64,000 nucleotides of DNA from Bacteroidia bacterium (lineage in GTDB: Bacteria; Bacteroidota; Bacteroidia; B-17B0; Aurantibacillaceae), in the NCBI GenBank assembly GCA_016787705.1, contig JAEUTP010000015.1, forward strand, positions 62,001 to 126,000, read 5' to 3'. Position numbers and translations under genes: made by a program. The notes beneath the pieces are model-generated. The model ran no database searches. It had not been told where the DNA came from and was given only the letters and a program-made list of their open reading frames with translations. Shown here in pieces: positions 4,832-61,623 of the stretch. Numbering within the stretch: the first letter of the stretch is position 1; the number at the start of each line of letters is the position of its first letter.

Positions 4832-5937
4832 GCCAACTCATACATTTTTCCAGGTCTTGATTTTATTACATTACTAAACTCTAATTGTAATAATAAAGCC
4901 GAGATTTTACTGACTGTAAATTCTGTGTTCTGACAGATTTCATCAACATGCAAACTGGATTTTTTAGTAAACACATCTATTATCTTTTTTTCTTCTTCAC
5001 TTAAATTTAAAAGCAGTGGTACTTGTTTAGTTTTATTTACTTTTTTCTCCTCTTCATTCCATTGCATGGCATATAAAAGATCGGCTGTGTTTTCTATTAA
5101 CACCGCGCGGTTTTGTTTTATCAATCCGTTACAGCCCTCTGCCAAAACATCGCCAGCCCTTCCCGGAAAAGCAAATACATCTTTATTATAACTGTTTGCA
5201 ATAGTTGCGGTAATTAAACTGCCGCCACCACGTTTACTTTCTATCACTACTAAAGCATCGCACAACCCGGCAACAATCCTGTTTCGTTTTGGAAAATTAA
5301 CTGCATCAGGATTTGTGCCACTCATAAAATCAGTAAGCAAGCCTCCCTGTCCTATCATACGCTTTGCAATCTTATCATGCAACTGCGGATAAATTCTGTC
5401 CAGGCCATGTGCAACAACACCAACAGTATCTAATTCGTTTGCCAAAGCAGTTTTATGTGCCAATACATCTACACCATAAGCAAGGCCACTTAAAATTAAT
5501 ATATTACTTCCTTTTAATTCAGAAACAAACTCTTCTGTTTTTTCTTTTCCGTAATCACTTGGCCGTCGTGTGCCAACTACGCCAATTATTTTTTCCTGGT
5601 TAAGATTGGCGTTGCCTTTGTAATATAATAACACCGGGCTATCACTACAATACTCTAAGCGTGTTGGGTATTTAGCATCTGTAAAAAAGATGGGTTCTAT
5701 TTTATATTTTTGAATAAATTCTATTTCTTCATCGGCTCGCAACAAAACATCCTTGCTTTTAACAATAGATCTGGCCCATGCTGAGCCAATACCGGGAATT
5801 TTTAACAGATGCGCTTCTTTTTGCTTAAACACCTGGCTTGCACTGCCACAATAGGCAAGTAACGCTTTTGCATTAACGTCGCCAATACCTTCAATCAATG
5901 TCAATCCTATCTGGTAAGGCAATTCGTCTAAATTCAT
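4828..5937 (-). CDS. dprA: DNA-processing protein DprA (Smf)
   Basis: The 369-residue protein binds incoming single-stranded DNA and loads RecA during natural transformation. It shows an N-terminal helix-hairpin-helix region (LIEGIGDVNAK and LLKIPGIGSAWA), the Rossmann-like core beginning IIGVVGTRRPSDYG (about 117-130), the segment SGLAYGVDVLAHK, the core end AEGCNGLIKQ, and a C-terminal winged-helix (DML1-like) domain. Length is usual for Bacteroidota DprA. Its stop overlaps the end of the convergent thioredoxin-like gene by four bases. It is divergent from the TonB receptor gene, 72 bp away. Confidence 0.95.
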   Translation of the reverse strand: MNLDELPYQIGLTLIEGIGDVNAKALLAYCGSASQVFKQKEAHLLKIPGIGSAWARSIVKSKDVLLRADEEIEFIQKYKIEPIFFTDAKYPTRLEYCSDSPVLLYYKGNANLNQEKIIGVVGTRRPSDYGKEKTEEFVSELKGSNILILSGLAYGVDVLAHKTALANELDTVGVVAHGLDRIYPQLHDKIAKRMIGQGGLLTDFMSGTNPDAVNFPKRNRIVAGLCDALVVIESKRGGGSLITATIANSYNKDVFAFPGRAGDVLAEGCNGLIKQNRAVLIENTADLLYAMQWNEEEKKVNKTKQVPLLLNLSEEEKKIIDVFTKKSSLHVDEICQNTEFTVSKISALLLQLEFSNVIKSRPGKMYELA

Positions 5938-6009
5938 TTTTTTGATATAAAGTTTGTTTCAAAATAAAAAAACCATTTACTATATTGTAAACTTATTCAT
6001 TACCTAAAC

Positions 6010-8370
6010 ATGAACAAATTTACTGCTAAACTTATTGTAGTTCTTGCTTTATTTTGTAGTATTTTAAGATCGCAGGTAAATATAAACGGTTATGTTACTG
6101 ATGCAAAAACACACGACACATTAATTGGTGCAATTGTAAGTGTTGATCTTAAAAACGTTAGTACTACTAATTTGCAAGGCTTTTACGAATTAAATATTAA
6201 TGCAGGTTCTTATACATTAACCTGCAATATGGTAGGATATAAGATTTTTAAAAAATTTATAAAAGTTGAAGAAAATCAAAACACATCGCTAAACATTGCT
6301 TTGGAAGATGCTAATACTGCATTGGATGAAGTAGTAATAAGTGCCGGCAAATTTGAACAAAAATTAAGCGATGTTACCGTGAGTATGGATGTTATTAAAC
6401 CATCATTAATTGAAAGTAAAAACGTTACTAATTTAGAGGTTATCATTAACCAGGTGCCCGGCGTAACGGTTGCAGACGGGCAGGCAAGTATTCGGGGTGG
6501 CAGTGGGTTTAGTTATGGTGCCGGAAGCCGTGTATTAATGCTGGTTGATGAAATGCCAATGACAAGTGCCGATGCCGGTGATATTAAATGGAATTATTTA
6601 CCGCTAGAAAATATTGAACAGGTGGAAGTGATCAAAGGCGCTTCTTCTGCCTTGTTTGGCTCAAGCGCTTTAAACGGTGTAATTAATTTGCGCACCATCT
6701 ACGCAAAAGATAAACCAATCACCAACATCATTTCTTTTTTTGGAAGTTACGATGCGCCAAGCAAAACATACAAATGGTGGAAAGGCACAACACAGTTTCA
6801 AAAAGGAATAAATTTTTCACACGCTCAAAAAATAAATAATCTTGATTTTGTTGTGGGCGGGCATATTTTTACTGACGATGGTTTTAGAATGTTAGAAACA
6901 GAAGATCGCCAGCGCTTTAATTGTAATCTGCGCTATAATTTTAAAAAAGTGCCAGGACTGGCCGTTGGTGTAAATACAAATATGATGAATACACGGGGGG
7001 GGTTATTTTTCTTATGGCAGAGTTATGATTCGGCTTACATTCCACAAGGTAGAACCATTCAGCGATACAACAACGATCGTTTTAATGTTGATCCGTTTGT
7101 AACTTACTTTTGGCAAAACAATAAATTAAGTTTACGCAACCGTTATTTTAAAACCGTTAATAGAAATGATAAAGGCCAGGGAAGCTATGCCGAATTATAT
7201 TATACCGAACTACAATATCAAAAACATTTTGCAAATAATTTAAATTTAACCTCTGGCGCTGTATATATGGAACAATTGGTGCTTGGTGATTCATTATACG
7301 GCAAGCATAGTGGTAAAAATATGGCTGGTTATATACAGGCAGATAAAAAATTCTTTAACCGGCTTACTATATCGGTTGGTTTAAGAGGTGAATTCTATAA
7401 ATTAGATACCGCAAAAACAAAAGGGTATATAATTCCAAACAAAGGTTCAGTTCCTTTACCTTTTCAGCCGGTTGCAAGGGTTGGTTTAAATTACCAGGCT
7501 TTTGAATTTACTTTTTTTAGAGCTTCTTTTGGGCAGGGCTACAGATTTCCGAGCGTTGCCGAAAAATTTGTGAGCACCGCGGTGAGTGCTTTACAAATTT
7601 ATCCAAACTCATCTTTACAACCTGAACGTGGATACAGTGCTGAAGTTGGTGTAAAGCAAGGTTTTAAAATTGCAGGTTTTAAAGGCTTGTTTGATGCGGC
7701 TGCTTTTTATACAAAATATAACAGTATGGTTGAATTTGTTTTTGATATTTACAGGCCTGGCGGTGCTACCGGAATTTTTTATGAGGATATTAATTATGCA
7801 GGCTTTAAGTCTCAAAACATCGGCGAAGCGCAGATCTCAGGTTATGAAACATCCATTAGCGGAACGGGAAAAATAGGGCCACTTAATATAACTGTATTTT
7901 CAGGTTATACTTATATGAACCCTATAAATCCAAACTTTAATGCAGCTAAAGATACTTTAGGCTTACCCGGAATAAATACTTTAAAATACCGCAGCAAACA
8001 TTTACTAAAAAACGATATACAGTTGGATTATAAATTTATTTCGATTGGTTACAGCACGCGTTTTACAAGCAAGATAGAAAATATTGACAGACGCTTTACA
8101 CAAAGTATTTTACATGAATATAACGATATTGCAAACGGAATAAACTGGGATGAAATAGATGCCACTTATATTTTACCCGGACTGAACAAAAATTTTGGCG
8201 AGTTTCAAAAAAGCGTTTGGGTGCACGATGCGCGTATTTCAATTAATCTAAATAAGTCTATAAGAATATCCTTTATCGTTAATAATTTTACCAATCAGTC
8301 TTACCAGGCCAGGCCGGGCGATATGCGCGCGCCAACACAATATGTGGGACAACTTGCAATAAAGCTTTAA
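6010..8370 (+). CDS. TonB-dependent outer-membrane receptor
   Basis: The 786-residue protein has a signal peptide (cleavage near ILRSQ), a carboxypeptidase-regulatory-like beta-sandwich (about 24-103, INGYVTDAKTHDTLIGAIV), a plug domain (about 120-230, with SIRGGSGFSYGAGSRV and QVEVIKGASSALFGSSAL), and a long beta-barrel ending in a hydrophobic strand (QYVGQLAIKL). This is the standard architecture for TonB-dependent uptake of siderophores, cobalamin or sugars in Bacteroidota. No SusD-like partner follows, so a polysaccharide role is not indicated and the substrate is unknown. A run of eight G residues lies inside the coding sequence at 6995-7002. The next gene begins 5 bp downstream. Confidence 0.93.
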   Translation: MNKFTAKLIVVLALFCSILRSQVNINGYVTDAKTHDTLIGAIVSVDLKNVSTTNLQGFYELNINAGSYTLTCNMVGYKIFKKFIKVEENQNTSLNIALEDANTALDEVVISAGKFEQKLSDVTVSMDVIKPSLIESKNVTNLEVIINQVPGVTVADGQASIRGGSGFSYGAGSRVLMLVDEMPMTSADAGDIKWNYLPLENIEQVEVIKGASSALFGSSALNGVINLRTIYAKDKPITNIISFFGSYDAPSKTYKWWKGTTQFQKGINFSHAQKINNLDFVVGGHIFTDDGFRMLETEDRQRFNCNLRYNFKKVPGLAVGVNTNMMNTRGGLFFLWQSYDSAYIPQGRTIQRYNNDRFNVDPFVTYFWQNNKLSLRNRYFKTVNRNDKGQGSYAELYYTELQYQKHFANNLNLTSGAVYMEQLVLGDSLYGKHSGKNMAGYIQADKKFFNRLTISVGLRGEFYKLDTAKTKGYIIPNKGSVPLPFQPVARVGLNYQAFEFTFFRASFGQGYRFPSVAEKFVSTAVSALQIYPNSSLQPERGYSAEVGVKQGFKIAGFKGLFDAAAFYTKYNSMVEFVFDIYRPGGATGIFYEDINYAGFKSQNIGEAQISGYETSISGTGKIGPLNITVFSGYTYMNPINPNFNAAKDTLGLPGINTLKYRSKHLLKNDIQLDYKFISIGYSTRFTSKIENIDRRFTQSILHEYNDIANGINWDEIDATYILPGLNKNFGEFQKSVWVHDARISINLNKSIRISFIVNNFTNQSYQARPGDMRAPTQYVGQLAIKL

Positions 8371-13398: not shown

Positions 13399-15537
13399 AT
13401 GAAAAAAATATTATTCGTTATTACATTTACTTCTTTTTCTCTTTTATCGTATTCTCAATCTGTAGAATTTGAAAAGGATAATTTTCCCGGTAAAAAAGAC
13501 GAAATGAAAGCTGCCCGCAAACAGTTAGATATTGGAACTGAATTTTATATGCAAGGCCGTAAAGAATTTGAAGATTTTAAAAAATCGTACGCCGCCGAAC
13601 ATCGCTACTATCCTGTAAGTCATTACGATTACCAAAAAGCAGGGTATCAAAATTTCAGAGATGCGCTTGCGCCGTTATCAACTGCACAGGCCTTTAATCC
13701 AAAAAATGCTCGCTTAAATTATATGTTGGGTTTCGTATCTTTTATTACAGATCCAACAACGCCACAAACCTTAACTTATTTTGAAACTGCATTTAAATTA
13801 GATCCTTTAGCAGAGGAAGATATGGCGTTTTGGTTGGCATGGAGTTACCATTTAAACAGCCGTTGGGATGATGCCATTAAACACTACCAGATCTTTCTTC
13901 AACAAGGTAAAAAAAATGCCATGGAAACTGAAGACATCAATAAAAAAATTACAGAATGTAACAATGGCAAAAAATTTAGCGCAAATCCTGAGCGGGTTTT
14001 TGTAGATAACCTTGGAAGCAACATCAATACTGCTTTTCCGGAGTATGGCCCTTCTATTTCTGCAGATGAGGAAACCGTAATTTTTACAGCGAGAAGAGAT
14101 AATTCTACCGGTGGTAAACGCGATGAAAATGACAATGGCTATTACGAAGATGTTTATATATCTACAAAACTAAACGGCAAATGGCAGGCCTCAAAACTTT
14201 TAAGTAAGAATGTAAATACCGAGAACCACGATGCGGCAGCTGGGCTTTCTTCTGATGGCACCAAGTTGTACGTTTACAGGCATTCAGGAAAAGATGGTGG
14301 CGATCTTTATGAAAGTGTTTTGTTTGGTGCAGATTGGGAAGAGCCGGTTCATATGAATAAATACATTAACACAAAATATCATGAATCAAGTGTGAGCTTA
14401 AGTTTTGATGGTAAGCGTTTATATTTTGTAAGTGATAAAGAGTCGGGCATTGGCGACAGGGATATTTATTACAGCGATATGGATGTAAAGGGAGAGTGGG
14501 GCCCTTCAAAAAACATTGGCCCCGTAATAAATACCAAATATGGCGATGAAGCTGTATTTATGCATCCTGACGGTGTTACATTATATTTTAGCAGTAAAGG
14601 CCACAACTCAATGGGCGGTTATGATATTTTTAAATCTACTTTAGTAAATGGCGTTTGGGGAACGCCCGAAAATTTAGGTTACCCCATCAACGGACCTGAT
14701 GATGACGTGTTTTTTGTTGTGAGTGGCAGCGGAAGCCGTGCGTATTTTGCATCTTCTAAAACCGGAGGCTTTGGCGAAAAGGATCTATATAAAATTACTT
14801 TTTTAGGTCCTGAAAAAATGCCGTTATTAAATACACAAGACCAACTAATGGCAATGGCCGCTAACCCTGTAAGTAACTTAAAAGTAGAGAATGCTGTAGA
14901 AGTTGCCTCTGCAAAATTAACCATTTTAAAAGGTGTGGTTACCGATGCAAAAACAACACAACCTTTAGAGTCTTCTATTGATCTTATTGATAATGATAAG
15001 AACGTTGTATTGGCAACTTTTAAATCTAACAGCAGCACCGGTAAATATTTAGTAACCTTACCAAGCGGTAAAAATTATGGTATTGCCGTAAAACGAGATG
15101 GATACTTATTTCATTCAGAGAATTTCAACATTCCAGACAATGCAGCTTTTCAGGAGTTTACTAAAGATGTGGCATTAAAGAAAATAGAAATTGGCAGCAC
15201 TATTGTTTTACGTAATATCTTTTTTGATTTTGATAAAGCAACCATTCGCCCTGAATCTGCGAATGAGTTAGAGCGTTTAATTAAATTATTGAACGATAAT
15301 CCAACATTAAAAATAGAGTTAGGTAGTCATACCGATAGCAAAGGCACAGATGATTATAACTGGAAGTTAAGTGACAGTCGTTCAAAATCAGTTGTTGATT
15401 ATTTAATTGGCAAAGGAATTAGTAATACAAGATTAGTAGCAAAAGGTTATGGCGAAACAAAACCAATTGATGCCAACGAAACGGATGATGGGCGCCAGAA
15501 CAACAGAAGAACAGAGTTTAAGATCTTAGAAAAATAA
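13399..15537 (+). CDS. PorE-like OmpA-family protein (TPR, propeller, CRD, OmpA)
   Basis: The 712-residue protein has a signal peptide (ending LLSYSQ), an N-terminal TPR-like helical region, a PD40/WD40-like beta-propeller with repeated blades such as SLSFDGKRLYFVSDKE and HPDGVTLYFSSKG, a carboxypeptidase-regulatory-like domain (GVVTDAKTTQPLESSI), and a C-terminal OmpA domain (FFDFDKATIRPES, ELGSHTDSKGTDDYN, NNRRTEF) that should bind peptidoglycan. This domain order matches PorE, a T9SS component anchored to the cell wall. The signal lacks a lipobox. Two other OmpA/PD40 proteins in the window (28324-30354 and 45920-47371) lack the regulatory domain or the full TPR region, so this is the best PorE candidate, but orthology is not proven. 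Confidence 0.83.
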   Translation: MKKILFVITFTSFSLLSYSQSVEFEKDNFPGKKDEMKAARKQLDIGTEFYMQGRKEFEDFKKSYAAEHRYYPVSHYDYQKAGYQNFRDALAPLSTAQAFNPKNARLNYMLGFVSFITDPTTPQTLTYFETAFKLDPLAEEDMAFWLAWSYHLNSRWDDAIKHYQIFLQQGKKNAMETEDINKKITECNNGKKFSANPERVFVDNLGSNINTAFPEYGPSISADEETVIFTARRDNSTGGKRDENDNGYYEDVYISTKLNGKWQASKLLSKNVNTENHDAAAGLSSDGTKLYVYRHSGKDGGDLYESVLFGADWEEPVHMNKYINTKYHESSVSLSFDGKRLYFVSDKESGIGDRDIYYSDMDVKGEWGPSKNIGPVINTKYGDEAVFMHPDGVTLYFSSKGHNSMGGYDIFKSTLVNGVWGTPENLGYPINGPDDDVFFVVSGSGSRAYFASSKTGGFGEKDLYKITFLGPEKMPLLNTQDQLMAMAANPVSNLKVENAVEVASAKLTILKGVVTDAKTTQPLESSIDLIDNDKNVVLATFKSNSSTGKYLVTLPSGKNYGIAVKRDGYLFHSENFNIPDNAAFQEFTKDVALKKIEIGSTIVLRNIFFDFDKATIRPESANELERLIKLLNDNPTLKIELGSHTDSKGTDDYNWKLSDSRSKSVVDYLIGKGISNTRLVAKGYGETKPIDANETDDGRQNNRRTEFKILEK

Positions 15538-49876: not shown

Positions 49877-51076
49877 ATGCAAAGGCAAATAGCACATTTA
49901 GACCTGGATAGTTTTTTTGTATCGGTAGAACGCTTACGTAATAGCGCTTATATTGGTAAACCGCTCATTATTGGCGGTACCAGTAATCGTGGTGTTATTT
50001 CTTCCTGCAGTTACGAAGCAAGAAAATACGGTTTGCGATCGGCCATGCCTATTAAGCAGGCAAAAATGCTTTGTCCCGACACAGTAGGTATTTACATTAC
50101 ACCAGATATGGATGTATATTCTAAATACTCACAAATAGTAACCGAAATAATAGAAACTAAATCGCCACTATATGAAAAATCAAGTATCGACGAACACTAC
50201 ATCGACCTTACAGGAATGGACAAGTTTTTTAACTGTCTTAAATGGACCAAAGAGCTCAGACAAACCATTATTAAAGAAAGCGGATTACCCATCTCGTTTG
50301 GTTTGTCGGTTAACAAAACAGTTTCAAAAATAGCAACTGATCACAGCAAGCCCGATGGTGAAAAATACGTGCCGCAGGAAGAGGTGTTGCCTTTTTTGTC
50401 GCCATTGGCCGTTGGTAAAATACCCATGGTAGGTGCCAAAACTGACGAGCGGTTAAAGCAACTGGGTATTACAACTATACAAGGCTTGCGCGAAGTGCCT
50501 TTGGAGTTACTGCAAAAAGTATTTGGCAAAAGCGGTATTTCTTTATGGGAAAAAGCCAGGGGCATTGATCTTTCGCCGGTGGAACCTTATAGTGAAAGAA
50601 AATCCATAAGCAGCGAAATGACCTTTGGTAAAGATACCATTGATGTGAAGATGCTAGACGAGCTTATTGCTGGCATGGTTGAAGAAGTGTGTTTTCAATT
50701 ACGTAAAGAAGGAAAGGTGGCGGGCTGTGTTTGCATCAAATTGCGTTATTCTAATTTTGATACGCACACCATCCAGCAAAAAATTTCTCTCACCGCTTTC
50801 GATCATCAAATTGTTACTATTGCAAAAGAGTTATTTAAAAAGCTTTACGAAAAACGAATGTTAATTCGTTTAATTGGTGTAAAGCTAACCGATCTTTGCC
50901 AGGGTAACCAGCAAATAAAATTGTTTGATAATACAACAAGCCAAATAAGTTTATATCAAACATTAGATAAAATAAAAAAGCGTTTTGGCGATAATTCTGT
51001 AATGCATTGCCCGGGTTTATTATTGCATCAAAAAGAAAATCCTAAAAACCCAACAGCTAAAACCTCATTACGCTAA
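49877..51076 (+). CDS. dinB: DNA polymerase IV (Y-family)
   Basis: The 399-residue translesion polymerase has the catalytic acids Asp9 (HLDLDSFFVSVE) and Asp105/Glu106 (KSSIDEHYIDLTG), the fingers segment SSCSYEARKYGLRSAMP, a helix-hairpin-helix thumb (VGKIPMVGAKTDERLKQLGI) and a C-terminal beta-clamp-binding-like motif QIKLFD. The usual aromatic after the catalytic DE is His here. It is followed by a palindromic spacer and a DnaE-type polymerase gene, a pairing reminiscent of mutagenesis cassettes. Confidence 0.93.
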   Translation: MQRQIAHLDLDSFFVSVERLRNSAYIGKPLIIGGTSNRGVISSCSYEARKYGLRSAMPIKQAKMLCPDTVGIYITPDMDVYSKYSQIVTEIIETKSPLYEKSSIDEHYIDLTGMDKFFNCLKWTKELRQTIIKESGLPISFGLSVNKTVSKIATDHSKPDGEKYVPQEEVLPFLSPLAVGKIPMVGAKTDERLKQLGITTIQGLREVPLELLQKVFGKSGISLWEKARGIDLSPVEPYSERKSISSEMTFGKDTIDVKMLDELIAGMVEEVCFQLRKEGKVAGCVCIKLRYSNFDTHTIQQKISLTAFDHQIVTIAKELFKKLYEKRMLIRLIGVKLTDLCQGNQQIKLFDNTTSQISLYQTLDKIKKRFGDNSVMHCPGLLLHQKENPKNPTAKTSLR

Positions 51077-51243
51077 ACCCGGATTATACGTTATGATTCG
51101 TTATGAGTATAAAAAGCCCAATAAAATATGAACTTTTACGAATGAAGCATAGTTGCTTCTATGGTAAAAGAGTAAAAGTTGCAAAGCTCCATATTTTGAA
51201 GGGCTTTTGGTACGAAATAGAATTTCTAATGTTTAATCTGGGT
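51077..51243. repeat. large imperfect palindrome between dinB and dnaE
   Basis: The 167-bp spacer folds on itself. Outer arms ACCCGGATTATACGTTA (51077-51093) and TAATGTTTAATCTGGGT (51227-51243) match in 14 of 17 positions. Inner arms are AAAAGCCC (51112-51119) with GGGCTTTT (51201-51208), AAAATATG (51123-51130) with CATATTTT (51190-51197), and AACTTTTAC (51131-51139) with GTAAAAGTT (51172-51180), with a 9-base bulge on one side. A small hairpin GAAGC/GCTTC (51144-51159) sits at the tip. The bases TAA flank both ends. It could be a structured RNA, an attenuator or a small mobile element. Confidence 0.7.
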
Positions 51244-51252
51244 TAAAATGCC

Positions 51253-54200
51253 ATGTGGCTTAATTGTCATACTTTTTACAGCCTTAAATACGGCACATTA
51301 TCTGTTGAGCGGTTAATACAACAGGCATTAGAAAACAATGCAGAAACACTTGTTATTACAGATATAAATAATTCTTCTGCTGTTTTAGAATCTGTAAAGT
51401 ATTGCCAGGAACATAAACTTTCACTTAACATCCTTGCCGGCATTGAGTTTCGGGATAAAACCAACTTTAATTATTTATATACCGGTATTGCAAAGAACAA
51501 TCACGGTTTTTCTTTTTTAAATGAATTTTTAACGGATCATAATTTGTCGGGCAAACCCCTACCCGCTCAGCCGCCGCAAAACGAAGATGTTTACTGGATC
51601 TATCGTTTAAAGAATTTTCCTGCTGTTTTACAATGGAATGAATTTATCGGTGTTGGTCTGAACGATATGCTGCGGGTGTTTCGCTACAAAGGTTTAGAAG
51701 ATAAACTACTTTTCTTCCACCCTGTTTCATTTGAAAGCGAAGAACATTTTGAAGTTCACAAACACCTTCGGGCAATTTCTTTGAATACACTTATTTCAAA
51801 ATTAACACCTGATCAACACGCTTTTAATAACGAGTTTTTTATTGATAAAACAGCTTTGCAAAAACGTCTGGAAGGTTATGAGTTTTTATTAGAGAACTCA
51901 AAAAAGTTACTGTCTAACTGCAGTTTTGAATTTAATTTTAAAGAGAGCAAGAATAAAAAGGTTTTTTCAGGGTCAATAGAAGAAGACAAAGAACTTCTTA
52001 AAAAATTGGCTTACGAAGGATTGCAAGATCGGTTTGGAACAATCGTTCCAAATGCAAAAAAAAGAGTTGATCATGAGCTGGATATCATAAATAAGATGGG
52101 TTTTGCGTCTTACTTTTTAATTACCTGGGACATTGTAAGGTTTAGCAGAAGTAAAGATATTTATCATGTAGGAAGAGGTTCTGGTGCTAATAGTGTTGTT
52201 GCTTATTGTTTAAGAATAACAGATGTTGATCCGATTACATTAGATCTTTACTTTGAGCGTTTTTTAAATCCCGAGCGCTCTGTTCCTCCCGATTTTGATA
52301 TTGATTATTGTTGGAAAGACCGTGATGTTGTGTTGGATTATGTTTTTGAAAAATACGGAAATAAACATACCGCTCTTTTAGGCACCGTTACCAATTTTAA
52401 AGACCGAAGCATGATCCGCGAACTGGGGAAGGTTTTTGGTTTACCAAAACAGCAAATAGAAAACATTATAAATATTCCTGAAGAAAAAGTAAAAGAAGCG
52501 CTTGATAAAAACGAATTTGATGAACTCACAACAATGATCTTTAAAATCGGTGCAAGCTTGCAACACACTCCAAATTACAGATCCATTCACGCCGGCGGCG
52601 TTTTAATTTCTGAGCTTCCTCTCTCCTATTATACCGCTTTAGATCTTCCTCCAAAAGGATATCCAACCGTACAATGGGATATGCACACGGCAGAAGAAAT
52701 TGGTTTTGAAAAGCTGGATATATTATCGCAACGTGGAATAGGGCACATTAACGATGCTGTAAAACTGATAAAGAAAAACAAGGGAATAGAAATAGATATC
52801 CATAAAGTAAAAGACTTTATAAACGACGAAAAAATAAAAGAGCATTTGCGTAACGGCGATTCTATTGGCTGCTTTTATGTAGAGAGTCCGGCCATGAGAG
52901 GTTTGCTGCGTAAATTAAGATGCGACACGTATTTAATGTTAACGGCGGCAAGCTCTATTATTCGTCCGGGCGTTGCAAGCAGCGGCATGATGAAAGAGTT
53001 TATACGGCGCTTTCATAACCAAGATGATATTCCTTATGCGCATCCAATTATGGAAGAGCAATTACACGAAACATTTGGGGTTATGATCTACCAGGAAGAT
53101 GTTTTAAAGATTGGTCATCATTATGGTGGATTAAATTTGGCGGAAGCAGATATGCTTCGCCGTTTAATGAGTGGCAAGAAACGAGGTGCGCAACACCTCA
53201 TCAATATCAAAAAGAAATTCTTTGATAATTGTAAAGCAAAAGGATATGATGAAGAAACAAGTAAAACTATTTGGTATCAAATGGAGAGCTTTGCGGGCTT
53301 TAGTTTTAGCAAGGCACACTCAGCAAGTTATGCCGTTGAAAGCTATCAGAGTTTGTTTTTAAAGGCTTATTATCCCCTTGAGTTTATAGTTGGTGTCATA
53401 AACAACTTTGGAGGCTTCTATCGCACCTGGGTTTACATTTATGAGGCAAAGAAACTGGGCGGCAATGTTCATTTACCCTGCGTAAATAACAGCGAGAATT
53501 TAACTACGCTTTATGGTTCGGATATTTACTTGGGTTTTATACATGTAAAAAGCCTGGAGAAAAACATTATACAAACCATAATTAAGGAAAGAGAAGAGGG
53601 GGGAATTTATCAGGATTTTGCTGATCTGGTTTCAAGGACAAAGATCAAATTAGAGCAATTATTGATATTAATTAAATGCGGAGCATGCAGCATTTTTGAT
53701 ACCAACAAAAAAAGTTTATACTGGAATGCATACTATATTTTGGGGAAAGAAGTTGGCAAGCCCGAGGCAAGCTTAAAGATGTTTGCCGAACCCGCAAAGC
53801 AATTTTTCCTCCCTAAATTACCCGTATCGTTTGTGGAATATTTGTTTGATGAATTGGCCTTATATAACTTCCCCATTACAAAAGATTTTTACAGCTTAAT
53901 TAAAACCCATTACAGAGGAGATATTCTAACAAAAGACTTATTATGCCATGTAGGTAAAACAGTAAAGCTAATGGGTAACTTTGTAAACGAGCGGGTGGTT
54001 TATACAAAGCAAGGATACAGAATGGCATTTGGTACTTTTATAGATTCAGCAGGAGACTTTTTTGATTCGGTACATTTTCCGGATGTATATGCTCAATATC
54101 GTTTTGAGGGGATAGGAATCTATTTAATTGAGGGAATAATAACAGAAGAATTTGGCTTCCCAATGTTGGAAGCCAAACGTATGGGTAAGGTTAAGATCAT

Positions 54201-54285
54201 GAACCAGGATGATGCTGTGGCGTTACTAAACCAATCTCCTAATAAAGGATCCATGGGGCCGTATCTTCCGGCATATAGCATTTAA
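51253..54285 (+). CDS. dnaE: DNA polymerase III alpha subunit, DnaE-type
   Basis: The 1010-residue C-family polymerase has a degenerate PHP domain (NCHTFYSLKYGTLS), the palm motifs GRGSGANSVVAYCL (about 307-320) and the catalytic aspartates PDFDID (346-351), the fingers segment FAGFSFSKAHSASYAVESY, and a C-terminal OB-like region (VKLMGNFVNERVVYTKQGY). It is shorter than replicative DnaE (about 1150 or more) and follows dinB, which fits a second, error-prone-type alpha subunit. The PHP metal ligands look mostly lost. ATG 51253 follows the palindromic spacer; a second ATG at 51248 is in another frame. Confidence 0.9.
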   Translation: MWLNCHTFYSLKYGTLSVERLIQQALENNAETLVITDINNSSAVLESVKYCQEHKLSLNILAGIEFRDKTNFNYLYTGIAKNNHGFSFLNEFLTDHNLSGKPLPAQPPQNEDVYWIYRLKNFPAVLQWNEFIGVGLNDMLRVFRYKGLEDKLLFFHPVSFESEEHFEVHKHLRAISLNTLISKLTPDQHAFNNEFFIDKTALQKRLEGYEFLLENSKKLLSNCSFEFNFKESKNKKVFSGSIEEDKELLKKLAYEGLQDRFGTIVPNAKKRVDHELDIINKMGFASYFLITWDIVRFSRSKDIYHVGRGSGANSVVAYCLRITDVDPITLDLYFERFLNPERSVPPDFDIDYCWKDRDVVLDYVFEKYGNKHTALLGTVTNFKDRSMIRELGKVFGLPKQQIENIINIPEEKVKEALDKNEFDELTTMIFKIGASLQHTPNYRSIHAGGVLISELPLSYYTALDLPPKGYPTVQWDMHTAEEIGFEKLDILSQRGIGHINDAVKLIKKNKGIEIDIHKVKDFINDEKIKEHLRNGDSIGCFYVESPAMRGLLRKLRCDTYLMLTAASSIIRPGVASSGMMKEFIRRFHNQDDIPYAHPIMEEQLHETFGVMIYQEDVLKIGHHYGGLNLAEADMLRRLMSGKKRGAQHLINIKKKFFDNCKAKGYDEETSKTIWYQMESFAGFSFSKAHSASYAVESYQSLFLKAYYPLEFIVGVINNFGGFYRTWVYIYEAKKLGGNVHLPCVNNSENLTTLYGSDIYLGFIHVKSLEKNIIQTIIKEREEGGIYQDFADLVSRTKIKLEQLLILIKCGACSIFDTNKKSLYWNAYYILGKEVGKPEASLKMFAEPAKQFFLPKLPVSFVEYLFDELALYNFPITKDFYSLIKTHYRGDILTKDLLCHVGKTVKLMGNFVNERVVYTKQGYRMAFGTFIDSAGDFFDSVHFPDVYAQYRFEGIGIYLIEGIITEEFGFPMLEAKRMGKVKIMNQDDAVALLNQSPNKGSMGPYLPAYSI

Positions 54286-54300
54286 GTTCCACGTGAAACA
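54285..54300. promoter_or_regulatory. parS site 1 (15/16 match)
   Basis: AGTTCCACGTGAAACA matches the parS sequence TGTTCCACGTGAAACA at all but the first base. It overlaps the last base of the dnaE stop codon. Confidence 0.85.
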
Positions 54301-54322
54301 TTTCTATAATATTTGCTTCGCA

Positions 54323-54370
54323 AAGCTCAGAGCCCTAAAACAATCAACATAACTAAGGGTAACTGAGCTT
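54323..54370. repeat. palindromic intergenic repeat, copy 2 (AAGCTCAG...CTGAGCTT)
   Basis: AAGCTCAG (54323-54330) and CTGAGCTT (54363-54370) are perfect inverted arms 32 bases apart. The sequence resembles 9333-9372, and both lie between convergent genes. Confidence 0.5.
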
Positions 54371-54430
54371 GTAGAAATGATAACCTAATAGAACCAATCC
54401 CCAAACAAACATCAAGCTATCAAACAAAAA

Positions 54431-54455
54431 AAAGCGGCCGATTCTCAGCCGCTTT
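54431..54455. terminator. bidirectional rho-independent-type terminator
   Basis: AAAGCGGC (54431-54438) and GCCGCTTT (54448-54455) form an 8-bp stem, flanked by A and T runs, between the convergent dnaE and methyltransferase genes. Confidence 0.8.
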
Positions 54456-54460
54456 CTTTT

Positions 54461-54476
54461 TGTTCCACGTGAAACA
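54461..54476. promoter_or_regulatory. parS site 2 (perfect)
   Basis: TGTTCCACGTGAAACA is a perfect parS 16-mer, directly after the terminator and just before the methyltransferase stop. Confidence 0.93.
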
Positions 54477-54477
54477 A

Positions 54478-55362
54478 TCACTTCTTTTTAAACACGTAAA
54501 TAACGCTTGAATACTCGCCGGCATTCTTTGCTTTAAGGTTAGACTTTAATCCGCTTATAAAAGCCTTTGGATATTTAATAGTTCCTGTTTTATACTTCTC
54601 ACTTAACATACTTACATAAAAGCTATCAAACTTCATAGGTAACATCTCGGTTAACTTAAAATCAAAACGGGCAAGGAGCTTCTCAATAGTTTGTGGATGG
54701 AAATGATAAAGGTGACGAGGAACATCATAGGCGGCCCAAAATTCTTTGTAGTATTGTGCATCAAAACTGGTATGATTAGGTACGGCAATTATTAAAACAC
54801 CTTTATCATTTAGCCTTGCTTTAAAGAAGTTTAAGGTATCATCAAGATCCGTTACATGTTCTAAAACATGCCATAAAGTTATAGCATCAAACTTTTGGCT
54901 ATTTGTATATTCGTTCAGCTTTACCTTGTTCTCAAATACAGTCAAGCTCATCTCTGAACCAATCTTTCTTGCCCCTTCATCAGGTTCCATTCCAAAAGAT
55001 TTCCATCCGGCATCCTGACATACTTTTAAAAACATCCCCGTGCCGCACCCATAATCTAATATTGTTCCACGTGAAACATGTTTAGAAACCAACTGGATCT
55101 TCTTCTTTAAAGTATAATTTCTAACGGCATGATAAAGCCTTGAGATAATCCCCTTTTTTGTATTGGAGTGGGAGATGTAGTCTTCGGATTTGTAATAGTC
55201 TCCTAAGATCTCATTTTCCGGTCGGGGGTTTGTAAATTTAAAACCACAACTCTCGCAAACAACGACCTTAAAATCCTCTTTACTTACGGTGTAATCTTTA
55301 CAGGTTAAACTTACTTTAAAGTTTGTTGTATTACAAACAGGGCAATTACTTAAATTTATCAT
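54478..55362 (-). CDS. class I SAM-dependent methyltransferase with N-terminal zinc ribbon
   Basis: The 294-residue protein begins with a zinc-ribbon-like module (CPVCNTTNF and VVCESCGFKFTNPRP), then a Rossmann methyltransferase domain with motif I ILDYGCGTGMFLKVC and the later ITLWHVLEHVTDLDDTL typical of Methyltransf_11/23-type enzymes. Such proteins often modify sugars or lipids, but no biosynthetic cluster is adjacent. A perfect parS site lies within its coding sequence at 55063-55078, and others flank both ends. Confidence 0.87.
   Translation of the reverse strand: MINLSNCPVCNTTNFKVSLTCKDYTVSKEDFKVVVCESCGFKFTNPRPENEILGDYYKSEDYISHSNTKKGIISRLYHAVRNYTLKKKIQLVSKHVSRGTILDYGCGTGMFLKVCQDAGWKSFGMEPDEGARKIGSEMSLTVFENKVKLNEYTNSQKFDAITLWHVLEHVTDLDDTLNFFKARLNDKGVLIIAVPNHTSFDAQYYKEFWAAYDVPRHLYHFHPQTIEKLLARFDFKLTEMLPMKFDSFYVSMLSEKYKTGTIKYPKAFISGLKSNLKAKNAGEYSSVIYVFKKK
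55063..55078. promoter_or_regulatory. parS site 3 (perfect, inside a gene)
   Basis: TGTTCCACGTGAAACA occurs inside the methyltransferase coding sequence, where it encodes part of the Rossmann region just before ILDYGCG. Confidence 0.93.
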
Positions 55363-55369
55363 AATTCAG

Positions 55370-55385
55370 TGTTCCACGTGAAACA
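55370..55385. promoter_or_regulatory. parS site 4 (perfect)
   Basis: TGTTCCACGTGAAACA lies in the short spacer between the methyltransferase start and the end of the TPR gene. Confidence 0.93.
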
Positions 55386-55386
55386 A

Positions 55387-56730
55387 TTATACTTTTAGTT
55401 TATTCTTCTTTCTGATTTGCGACCTGAATAACCAAATTGTTAAAGCGCAAACAAAGGCAATAAAGGCAATTAAAAAAGCGCTCGTCTTACTTTTCTCTTC
55501 TTCTAAAAGAATAGAATTAGAAGCCATAAGTGCAACCAGCTTTTCTTTTAAAATTAATGTATTTAAGCTGTCGGCAGAAAGACGACTAAAATAATTTCTA
55601 GCCGCAGCCTTATTGCGCACAAATTCATTGGCTATTGTGATGTTAAGACTGTCTTCCATCTTAACATACAACTCAAACATTTCTAACGCCTTTAAACTGT
55701 TGCCTGAATTTTTATGAATAAGATAAAGGGCTTTTGCCGGCCCTTTTATGTCGCCAGGAAAACCCAATTCTCTTGCCAACTTTAAACTTCTCTCAAAACA
55801 TTCCTTTGCTTTAGGCAAATCGTTCTTTTTTAAATAAGCAAGGCCAAGGTTATGCAAAGCAAAAGCAATAGTTTGTTTATCGCCAATCTGCTCACCTAAA
55901 AATAACCCTTTGCTTAAATTCTCGATAGCCATAGCATAATCGCCATTATTATAATACATGCCCCCCAAACTATTATAGGAGGTTGCCCCACCTTCTTTAT
56001 CGTCAATATCTAAACGGATCTTTAAAGAGGCTTCCAAACATTTTAAAGCTTCGTTAAAATTACCCGCAAAATAATATCCCGTAGCAAGAGCATTATAACA
56101 GTTTGCTTCTCCGCGTCTATCCCCAATCTCCTTTCTGATGGCCAAACTTTTGAAAATATACTTCCTTGCACTAGTTGTATCACCCTTGTCTCTATAAATA
56201 CTAGACATGTTACTAAGTGTGGCAGCCATACCCGCTTTATCACCAATCTCTTGATGCACTTTTATGCCTTTAGCGTAATACTCAAGCGCCCGGTTATAAT
56301 CTAATTGCTGATAATAAACAAAGCCAATATTATTTAGCGAGTTGGCAATTCCCTTTTTATCTTTTATATCAAAACGAATATCCAACGCGTCTCGATAAAG
56401 CTGCAAAGCTTTTAATACATGGCCGGTTCTTTCTTCTAAAAAGCCTTCGTTATTAATAGCTGCTGCCAGGTATTTTAAATAGGTTTGTTTTATTTTGCCT
56501 TCAGAAAGGGCAATACGCTTTTTAGCAATAACCTTAAGTTCATTATTATACTTTGGCCAAACAGAATTATCTGTTTCACTATCTATCAACTCAACATAAA
56601 TTTCGCATTTAACAGAATCTGAAAAGGTCTTGCTTAAGAGTGACAATAGAGAATCTTTTGTCTTTTGCTGTGAAAACATGCCCGTAAAAAGCAGAAGCAT
56701 TGCAAAAGTTAAGCTTTCTTTTTTTATCAT
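55387..56730 (-). CDS. exported TPR protein with C-terminal membrane anchor
   Basis: The 447-residue protein has a signal-like N-terminus (LTFAMLLLFTGMFSQQ), about seven regular 40-residue TPR units of the 7-TPR/sensor kind (GIANSLNNIGFVYYQQLDYN; GMAATLSNMSSIYRDKGD), and a C-terminal transmembrane helix (about 419-437) with a short basic tail (SQIRKKNKLKV). Relatives carry a kinase, LuxR-type or SpoIIE output after the helix; none is present here. It is 2 bp after mnmG on the same strand, so the two are probably cotranscribed. Confidence 0.83.
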   Translation of the reverse strand: MIKKESLTFAMLLLFTGMFSQQKTKDSLLSLLSKTFSDSVKCEIYVELIDSETDNSVWPKYNNELKVIAKKRIALSEGKIKQTYLKYLAAAINNEGFLEERTGHVLKALQLYRDALDIRFDIKDKKGIANSLNNIGFVYYQQLDYNRALEYYAKGIKVHQEIGDKAGMAATLSNMSSIYRDKGDTTSARKYIFKSLAIRKEIGDRRGEANCYNALATGYYFAGNFNEALKCLEASLKIRLDIDDKEGGATSYNSLGGMYYNNGDYAMAIENLSKGLFLGEQIGDKQTIAFALHNLGLAYLKKNDLPKAKECFERSLKLARELGFPGDIKGPAKALYLIHKNSGNSLKALEMFELYVKMEDSLNITIANEFVRNKAAARNYFSRLSADSLNTLILKEKLVALMASNSILLEEEKSKTSAFLIAFIAFVCALTIWLFRSQIRKKNKLKV

Positions 56731-56732
56731 TC

Positions 56733-58619
56733 TTATCTTCCTAGGTGAACTAATAAAACAGAAATATCGGCAGGATTGATGCCGGAAATTCTACTGGCCT
56801 GGCCGATGGTGTGCGGTTTAAACTTTTTGAACTTTTCTATTGCTTCGGCGCCTAAGCTTTTAATACTATCGTAATTAAAGTCTGCATGGATCACATAGTC
56901 TTCCAAACGTTTATGCTTATCTGCATTTTCCTTTTCTCGTTCAATATAACCTTCGTACTTCATTAATATTTCAGCTTGTTCAATAGTTTCGGCATCATAA
57001 CCTTCGAGTACATTTGCTAATAACTGATCGTGAATGGCCATGTCTTTAATAGAAACATTTGGCCTTGAGAGCACATTAAAATACCGTATTTTTTGAGTGA
57101 TAGGAGCAGAGCTAACTGATTCAAGGAAACCATTAATAACACCCGGCTCTGCGCTTGTGTTCTTAAAATGATCAATGATCTTATTGTAGGCGCTTATCTT
57201 TTCAGTAACACGTTTCATTCTGGCATCTGCGGCAAGTCCCAAAGCGCTAGATATTGGCGTTAGCCTTATATCCGCGTTGTCCTGACGTAATAATAACCTG
57301 TATTCGGCACGTGAAGTAAACATCCGATATGGTTCATCTGTTCCTTTAGTAACAAGGTCATCAATTAAAACACCTATGTAAGCTTCATAACGATTCAATA
57401 TTAACGGCGCTTTATGGTTCACTTTTAAGTGCGCATTAATGCCGGCCATCATACCTTGACAAGCGGCTTCTTCGTATCCGGTAGTACCATTAATTTGACC
57501 GGCAAAATATAAATTGTCTACCAATTTTGTTTCAAGAGTTAGCTTTAATTGTGTTGGTGGAAAATAATCGTATTCGATGGCATAGCCAGGCCTAAACATT
57601 CGTGCCCTTTCAAAGCCCGGAATTAAAGCCAATGCCTTTTGCTGAACATCTATTGGTAAAGAAGTAGAAAATCCATTTACATAGATTTCCACCGTGTTCC
57701 AGCCTTCAGGTTCTACAAACAACTGGTGTCTTTCTCTCTCGCTAAATCTTGTAATTTTATCCTCAATGCTTGGGCAATATCTTGGGCCAAGACCTTGAAT
57801 TCTCCCTTGAAACATGGGCGATTTTTCAAACCCTGTCTTTAAAATATCGTGTACATCCTGGTTAGTATAGGTAACATGACAAGGAATTTGTTTTACTCTA
57901 TTTGGGCCAATAAAAGGAGAAGTATTATCGAGATAAGAGAATTTATCTACTGCTTCATCTCCGCCCTGAACCTCCATTTTAGAATAATCCAAAGATCTGC
58001 CATCTATCCTAGGGGGTGTGCCGGTTTTCATACGACCGCTTTCAAATCCTATTTGGACCAATTGTTCCGTTATTCCATAACTGGCAGATTCGCCCGTGCG
58101 GCCGCCACCCAACTGTTTCTCGCCAATATGAATGATTCCGTTTAAAAATGTTCCGTTTGTTAATACAACTGCTTTTGCTTTAAACTCAATGCCCATGCCT
58201 GTTACAACACCTTCTACGCGTTTACCGTCTCTAGAAATGATAAGTGATCTTACCATATCCTGCCAGAAATCAACATTTGGGCTTTGTTCAAGCATTTCGC
58301 GCCAAACGGCAGCAAATAGCATACGATCGTTTTGTGTGCGCGGGCTCCACATGGCAGGGCCTTTGCTACGATTCAACATTCTGAATTGTATAGCAGATTT
58401 ATCAGATACTATACCGCTGTAACCACCCATGGCATCTATTTCGCGCACAATTTGTCCTTTGGCAATGCCACCCATTGCAGGATTACAACTCATTTGAGCA
58501 ATGGTTTGCATATTCATCGTTACCAACAATACTTTGGAACCCATGTTGGCGGCAGCCGCTGCGGCCTCACAGCCTGCATGGCCTGCCCCCACTACAATTA
58601 TATCGTATTCTGATCTCAA
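56733..58619 (-). CDS. mnmG: tRNA uridine 5-carboxymethylaminomethyl modification enzyme MnmG
   Basis: The 628-residue FAD enzyme works with MnmE to modify U34 of tRNAs. It has the FAD fold [19 protein letters not shown], the conserved [20 protein letters not shown], the GiDA signature [16 protein letters not shown], and [19 protein letters not shown]. Length is normal. The start codon is TTG, giving [13 protein letters not shown]. In many bacteria mnmG (gidA) lies near the replication origin, which agrees with the parS sites 1.3-4.3 kb away. Confidence 0.97.
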
Positions 58620-61140: not shown

Positions 61141-61623
61141 AATTTTTTAGTATAGCATTATAAAACATAATAATACTCAAAAATACTAATCAACGTTAAT
61201 TAACACTAATAAATTAACTAACTGATAATGAACCGTACGTTAATAAACAAATTAACACATTTAATGTTAACTACGCTAATTGAACGTTAATAAGTATCAA
61301 AAGAATATTAGTACAATATTAAATAAAAGTATGGTATGTAAATTTTTTTAGTAAATCCTAGCAGAGTTATAATTTTCAGTCAGAATTTATTAGAGTCATT
61401 TTTACCTTACTAACACTTTTAAATCACCCAAAGTTATTAAGACTAATAAGTACTAACTATTGTTAATAGTAGTTACTATATTTGAATTCAGCACTTTAAA
61501 CTCTTAACTTTGTTAATTAGCTGTTAACTAGTATTAATAAACCTAAATACCAAAAAAAAAAAAAAAACTAACTAACAGTATTAACAGCTTATATATACAA
61601 TACATAATTTAAATTTTAAAAAA
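61141..61623. other. AT-rich spacer with clustered GTTAAT/ATTAAC words
   Basis: This is the only gene-free stretch above 300 bp. It is extremely AT-rich and carries an A16 run (61552-61567). Short words GTTAAT or ATTAAC occur nine times (61195, 61199, 61213, 61239, 61251, 61286, 61462, 61512, 61580) and GTTAAC twice (61266, 61523), including a palindrome GTTAATTAAC at 61195. No open frame is convincing. It may hold the nadA promoter with operators, or an origin or DNA-unwinding element; clear TTATnCACA DnaA boxes were not seen. Confidence 0.5.
61481..61512 (+). promoter_or_regulatory. candidate nadA promoter
   Basis: TTTG (61481-61484), then 20 bases, then TAACTTTG (61505-61512) fit the Bacteroidota -33/-7 pattern. 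It lies 112 bp before nadA. GTTAAT/GTTAAC words at 61462, 61512 and 61523 surround it. Confidence 0.45.

Follow-up and report, generated by a model that had tools for sequence, protein, structure and literature searches.

A cluster of four parS sites beside mnmG in a Bacteroidia genome, very probably a chromosomal centromere next to the replication origin

The parS sites and neighbouring genes

The window, a stretch of 64,000 nucleotides from contig JAEUTP010000015.1 of a Bacteroidia bacterium (GCA_016787705.1), carries a group of short repeated sites between a polymerase gene and mnmG. The features of this part of the window are as follows.

51253..54285, plus strand: DnaE-like gene for DNA polymerase III alpha, ending right at the parS cluster
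54285..54300, plus strand: parS site 1, AGTTCCACGTGAAACA, one mismatch
54461..54476, plus strand: parS site 2, exact TGTTCCACGTGAAACA, in the intergenic space where the DnaE-like and methyltransferase genes converge
54478..55362, minus strand: SAM-dependent methyltransferase gene (Pfam Methyltransf_23), host of the intragenic parS
55063..55078, plus strand: parS site 3, exact TGTTCCACGTGAAACA, within the methyltransferase gene
55370..55385, plus strand: parS site 4, exact TGTTCCACGTGAAACA, directly upstream of the methyltransferase start
55387..56730, minus strand: TPR-repeat protein gene, between the parS cluster and mnmG
56733..58619, minus strand: mnmG (gidA), flanked by parS across the class

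All four sites lie inside 1.1 kb. The sequence-only reading had listed three exact 16-mers (54461, 55063 and 55370) and one with a single mismatch (54285), had placed one copy in the methyltransferase gene and had put mnmG about 1.3 kb away. All four sites were re-found, the copy at 55063 falls in the minus-strand reading frame 54478-55362, and the distance to mnmG is 1.35 kb. The sites sit tightly against the genes: site 1 begins on the final A of the DnaE-like gene's stop codon, and site 2 lies directly past the methyltransferase stop codon. The 16-bp parS consensus is matched here above chance; shuffles of the window, with as many as three mismatches allowed and both strands counted, gave 0.54 matches on average. 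The 14-base core GTTNCACGTGNAAC was found four times in the genome of 4,515,664 bases, every time in this cluster, while its reversed control pattern gave no match in the same genome. The next best matches on the 298-kb contig have three mismatches. Dense parS clusters elsewhere, which would have spoken against an origin-marking role, were thus absent from the genome.

Searches for Rfam families and tRNAs gave no matches. As a separate observation, the DnaE-like polymerase gene comes immediately after a DNA polymerase IV gene (49877-54285 of the window), an arrangement resembling a mutagenesis cassette, which ends at the parS cluster.

Conservation of the locus and type of ParB

The parS motif was present in 33 of 37 genomes of the same genus; among genomes of the class that belong to other families, 22 of 23 had it. 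In nearly all loci examined it adjoins mnmG or the same methyltransferase gene. In the four same-genus assemblies where a parS site was not found, a close methyltransferase was not found either, so part of this absence may be assembly loss; true loss of parS in these four genomes was considered and set aside, since assembly gaps are likely for some of them. As a check free of selection for parS, the methyltransferase protein alone was used to collect 80 loci; in 75 of them parS was no more than about 8 kb away, typically flanking mnmG on one side or on both. The five loci lacking it include Xanthocytophaga, with two two-mismatch sites, and Tenacibaculum adriaticum, with eight one-mismatch variants. 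The eight near-parS sites of T. adriaticum are packed into 2.3 kb (5696-7998 of its locus) in the mnmG-methyltransferase region, and six of them are the variant TGTTTCACGAGGAACA, possibly reflecting a shifted parS specificity. We also noted that CP034120.1, titled as the gammaproteobacterium Glaciecola amylolytica, contains a Bacteroidota mnmG-methyltransferase-parS locus together with the origin pattern described below; the title may be wrong.

The window was said to lack parA and parB, and indeed the only ParB above the curated cut-off in the genome is encoded on another contig, C7. A ParA gene, its product bearing a KGGVGKT motif, stands directly before it. The N-terminal and DNA-binding domains of this ParB align with solved chromosomal ParB and Noc proteins, and in the helix-turn-helix VGKQRSTV and MGHAKA align with chromosomal ParB structures. 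At the two positions that set ParB apart from Noc it has Arg and Gly, the ParB type; according to PMC7383237 every ParB retains these residues, whereas Noc has others. The genome hence encodes both ParA and a ParB with specificity residues of the parS type. No protein passes the NCBIfam family cut-off for Smc in this genome, so that ParB may act without its usual condensin partner.

The palindromes could instead bind another factor: a nucleoid occlusion protein resembling Noc, or a transcription regulator acting locally on the methyltransferase and polymerase genes. Such a role would fit the confinement of all four sites to gene borders or one gene within 1.1 kb, and the ParB scores 234 bits with the Noc model, a value below the cut-off of 315. 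Against it, the Gln and Arg expected of Noc at the specificity positions are absent from this ParB, the 16-mer is the parS consensus itself, and the array persists where neighbouring genes change, tracking mnmG and the switch in GC skew. We therefore regard binding by such a factor as very unlikely.

Placement of the replication origin

On the window's own contig the GC skew is weak and insufficient alone to place the origin. In four single-contig relatives, GC skew at fourfold-degenerate positions was corrected for gene strand and fitted over sampled stretches, with denser sampling near parS in all four. The fitted origins lay at 0.96-0.97 Mb in relative G001 (parS at 0.953 Mb), 2.33-2.36 Mb in relative G030 (parS at 2.32 Mb), 4.12-4.14 Mb in CP034120.1 (parS at about 4.12 Mb) and 3.03-3.09 Mb in Flavobacterium akiainvivens (parS at about 3.15 Mb), that is, within about 40 kb of parS in three relatives and 60-120 kb from it in one scaffold. 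Permutation gave p <= 0.003 in three relatives and 0.056 in G030, where the free fit also put the terminus implausibly close. Forcing the origin to dnaA or parB gave a much lower skew amplitude and a much worse fit. By these fits the parS sites of all four relatives are clustered near the origin; a position near the terminus, which would have contradicted the proposed role, was not what the skew indicated. The same genomes answered where dnaA and parAB lie: both are far from parS, dnaA by 0.95-1.84 Mb and parB by 1.08-2.50 Mb, and the position of dnaA would consequently have misled us about the origin. In the genome under study the DnaA gene is on contig C1.

We conclude with high confidence that the cluster is the parS array, or centromere, of a chromosomal ParABS system beside the replication origin. 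The sequence-only reading of these sites as canonical, origin-proximal parS was borne out in both respects, by consensus 16-mers unique to the locus and by a skew switch at or near parS in relatives. It does count against a ParABS system at the origin that parAB unlinked from parS is a less usual arrangement than that of model species.

It is also conceivable that the sites are chromosomal parS away from the origin, kept together merely as a conserved gene neighbourhood, and that replication starts near dnaA. The weak skew of the window's contig and the lack of a canonical DnaA-box cluster on it are in line with this, whereas in the four relatives the skew fits rejected dnaA as the origin and pointed to parS or its vicinity. 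Further, two Cytophagales relatives have nine sites resembling DnaA boxes, mostly TTATCCACA, within 480 bp on the downstream side of the same methyltransferase gene, at a distance of about 6 kb in Xanthocytophaga and about 3 kb in a Cytophagales MAG. An origin elsewhere is accordingly improbable, to a degree similar to binding by a Noc-like factor. The Cytophagales clusters, of textbook type, are at 14619-14906 (locus L199) and 5088-5439 (locus L212), in relatives without exact parS nearby.

One interval of the window is a candidate for the origin element itself.

61141..61623, no strand assigned: candidate oriC, divergent intergenic region between rpiB and nadA, 21% GC, nine GTTAAT/ATTAAC boxes

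This interval is AT-rich, intergenic, conserved and located at the skew switch, since the skew minimum of G001, at about 957-963 kb, is beside the divergent intergenic gap that is its counterpart. Of 25 same-genus genomes tested, 21 have similar DNA, usually on the contig that carries parS, and the best conserved positions are the repeated GTTAAT/ATTAAC boxes. It is the densest 480-bp window for such boxes on the contig (nine, against five in the next). Canonical DnaA boxes TTATCCACA were not found in the interval, nor clustered near parS on the window's contig. The region upstream of dnaA has one GTTAAT and no canonical DnaA box, and so gives no help in identifying the box of the initiator. 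As a mark of origins throughout the class the GTTAAT array was rejected, being present in close relatives and inconsistent elsewhere. We consider 61141-61623 the best oriC candidate, from its composition, conservation and position. A fuller proposal, that it is a lineage-specific oriC beside mnmG which has lost its canonical DnaA boxes and whose GTTAAT-type array would be bound by a DnaA of shifted specificity or by another initiator, with a centromere lying partly in codons, is put forward tentatively and is rather doubtful as a whole.

The intragenic site and the biology of the locus

On the coding strand of the methyltransferase gene parS site 3 reads GTTTCACGTGGAAC and encodes Val-Ser-Arg-Gly-Thr at about codons 96-100. 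Among 28 same-genus methyltransferases, 20 retain the exact parS core. In these 28 genes the fraction of identical codons peaks in the windows of five codons that start at codon 94 and codon 95, where it reaches 0.91; over the gene its median is 0.46 and its 95th percentile 0.63. Amino-acid identity along the stretch is only moderate. Some ascertainment remains in these values, as the same-genus loci were mostly fetched via parS, at any site of the cluster. Methyltransferase homologues from other families have no site at this position, and the residues there are unrelated. In other families parS is found instead at codon 28 of the same gene, as Val-Ser-Arg-Glu-Thr in the same frame, and at codon 268, in a different frame; two mnmG genes have a looser match at codon 539. 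Many relatives without parS at codon 28 already encode VSxE, so few substitutions would presumably create the site.

The intragenic site is under selection at the DNA level, and the earlier suggestion that parS constrains this segment of the gene as DNA agrees with the peak of synonymous conservation. That the codons are conserved for methyltransferase function, the parS match being incidental, is suggested by the location of site 3 directly before the ILDYGCGTG motif (SAM motif I), and is scarcely credible given the gene's highest identical-codon fraction at only moderate amino-acid identity, the unrelated residues in homologues lacking the site, and the presence, in other families, of two further in-gene positions, of which one is read in a different frame.

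In general plan this is an ordinary ParABS centromere, and four clustered parS sites beside an origin are the expected arrangement. The systems of Bacillus subtilis, Caulobacter and Pseudomonas aeruginosa have the same 16-bp parS, clustered at the origin, and the same ParA and ParB families. They differ from the present case, in which all sites are within 1.1 kb, no Smc passes the cut-off, and, in complete relatives, about 1-2.5 Mb separates parS from parAB and dnaA. P. aeruginosa, too, has a four-site cluster, the one nearest oriC, and intragenic parS is already known in that species, nine of its ten sites being predicted to fall within genes (PMC4368675). In gut bacteria, Bacteroides caecimuris among them, the origin is marked by parS clusters and not always by dnaA, and a condensin homologue was not found in B. 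caecimuris (PMC10197239), all of which matches the present locus; the passages of that paper covered here do not describe an anchoring to mnmG and the methyltransferase gene, codon-embedded sites or an oriC element. Within the literature covered, nothing specific was found on parS in Bacteroidota, parS with mnmG, or a Bacteroidetes DnaA-trio.

At this locus ParB, produced from the distant parAB pair, would load at the four parS sites and spread over the mnmG region, and ParA would move newly copied origins apart. The array is anchored to mnmG and the neighbouring methyltransferase gene, with one site held within codons by selection on the DNA.

What the locus adds to this familiar system is the class-wide anchoring to mnmG, the codon constraint at the DNA level, an origin without dnaA or parAB and an unusual oriC candidate. 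For Bacteroidia a practical marker of the origin would be parS flanking mnmG and not dnaA, which lies 1-2 Mb off in complete relatives. The methyltransferase gene is a clean natural example of a DNA-binding site dictating part of a protein sequence, with several in-gene positions to compare. Finally, the conserved GTTAAT array makes the location of oriC and its boxes testable in a group known mostly from metagenomes.
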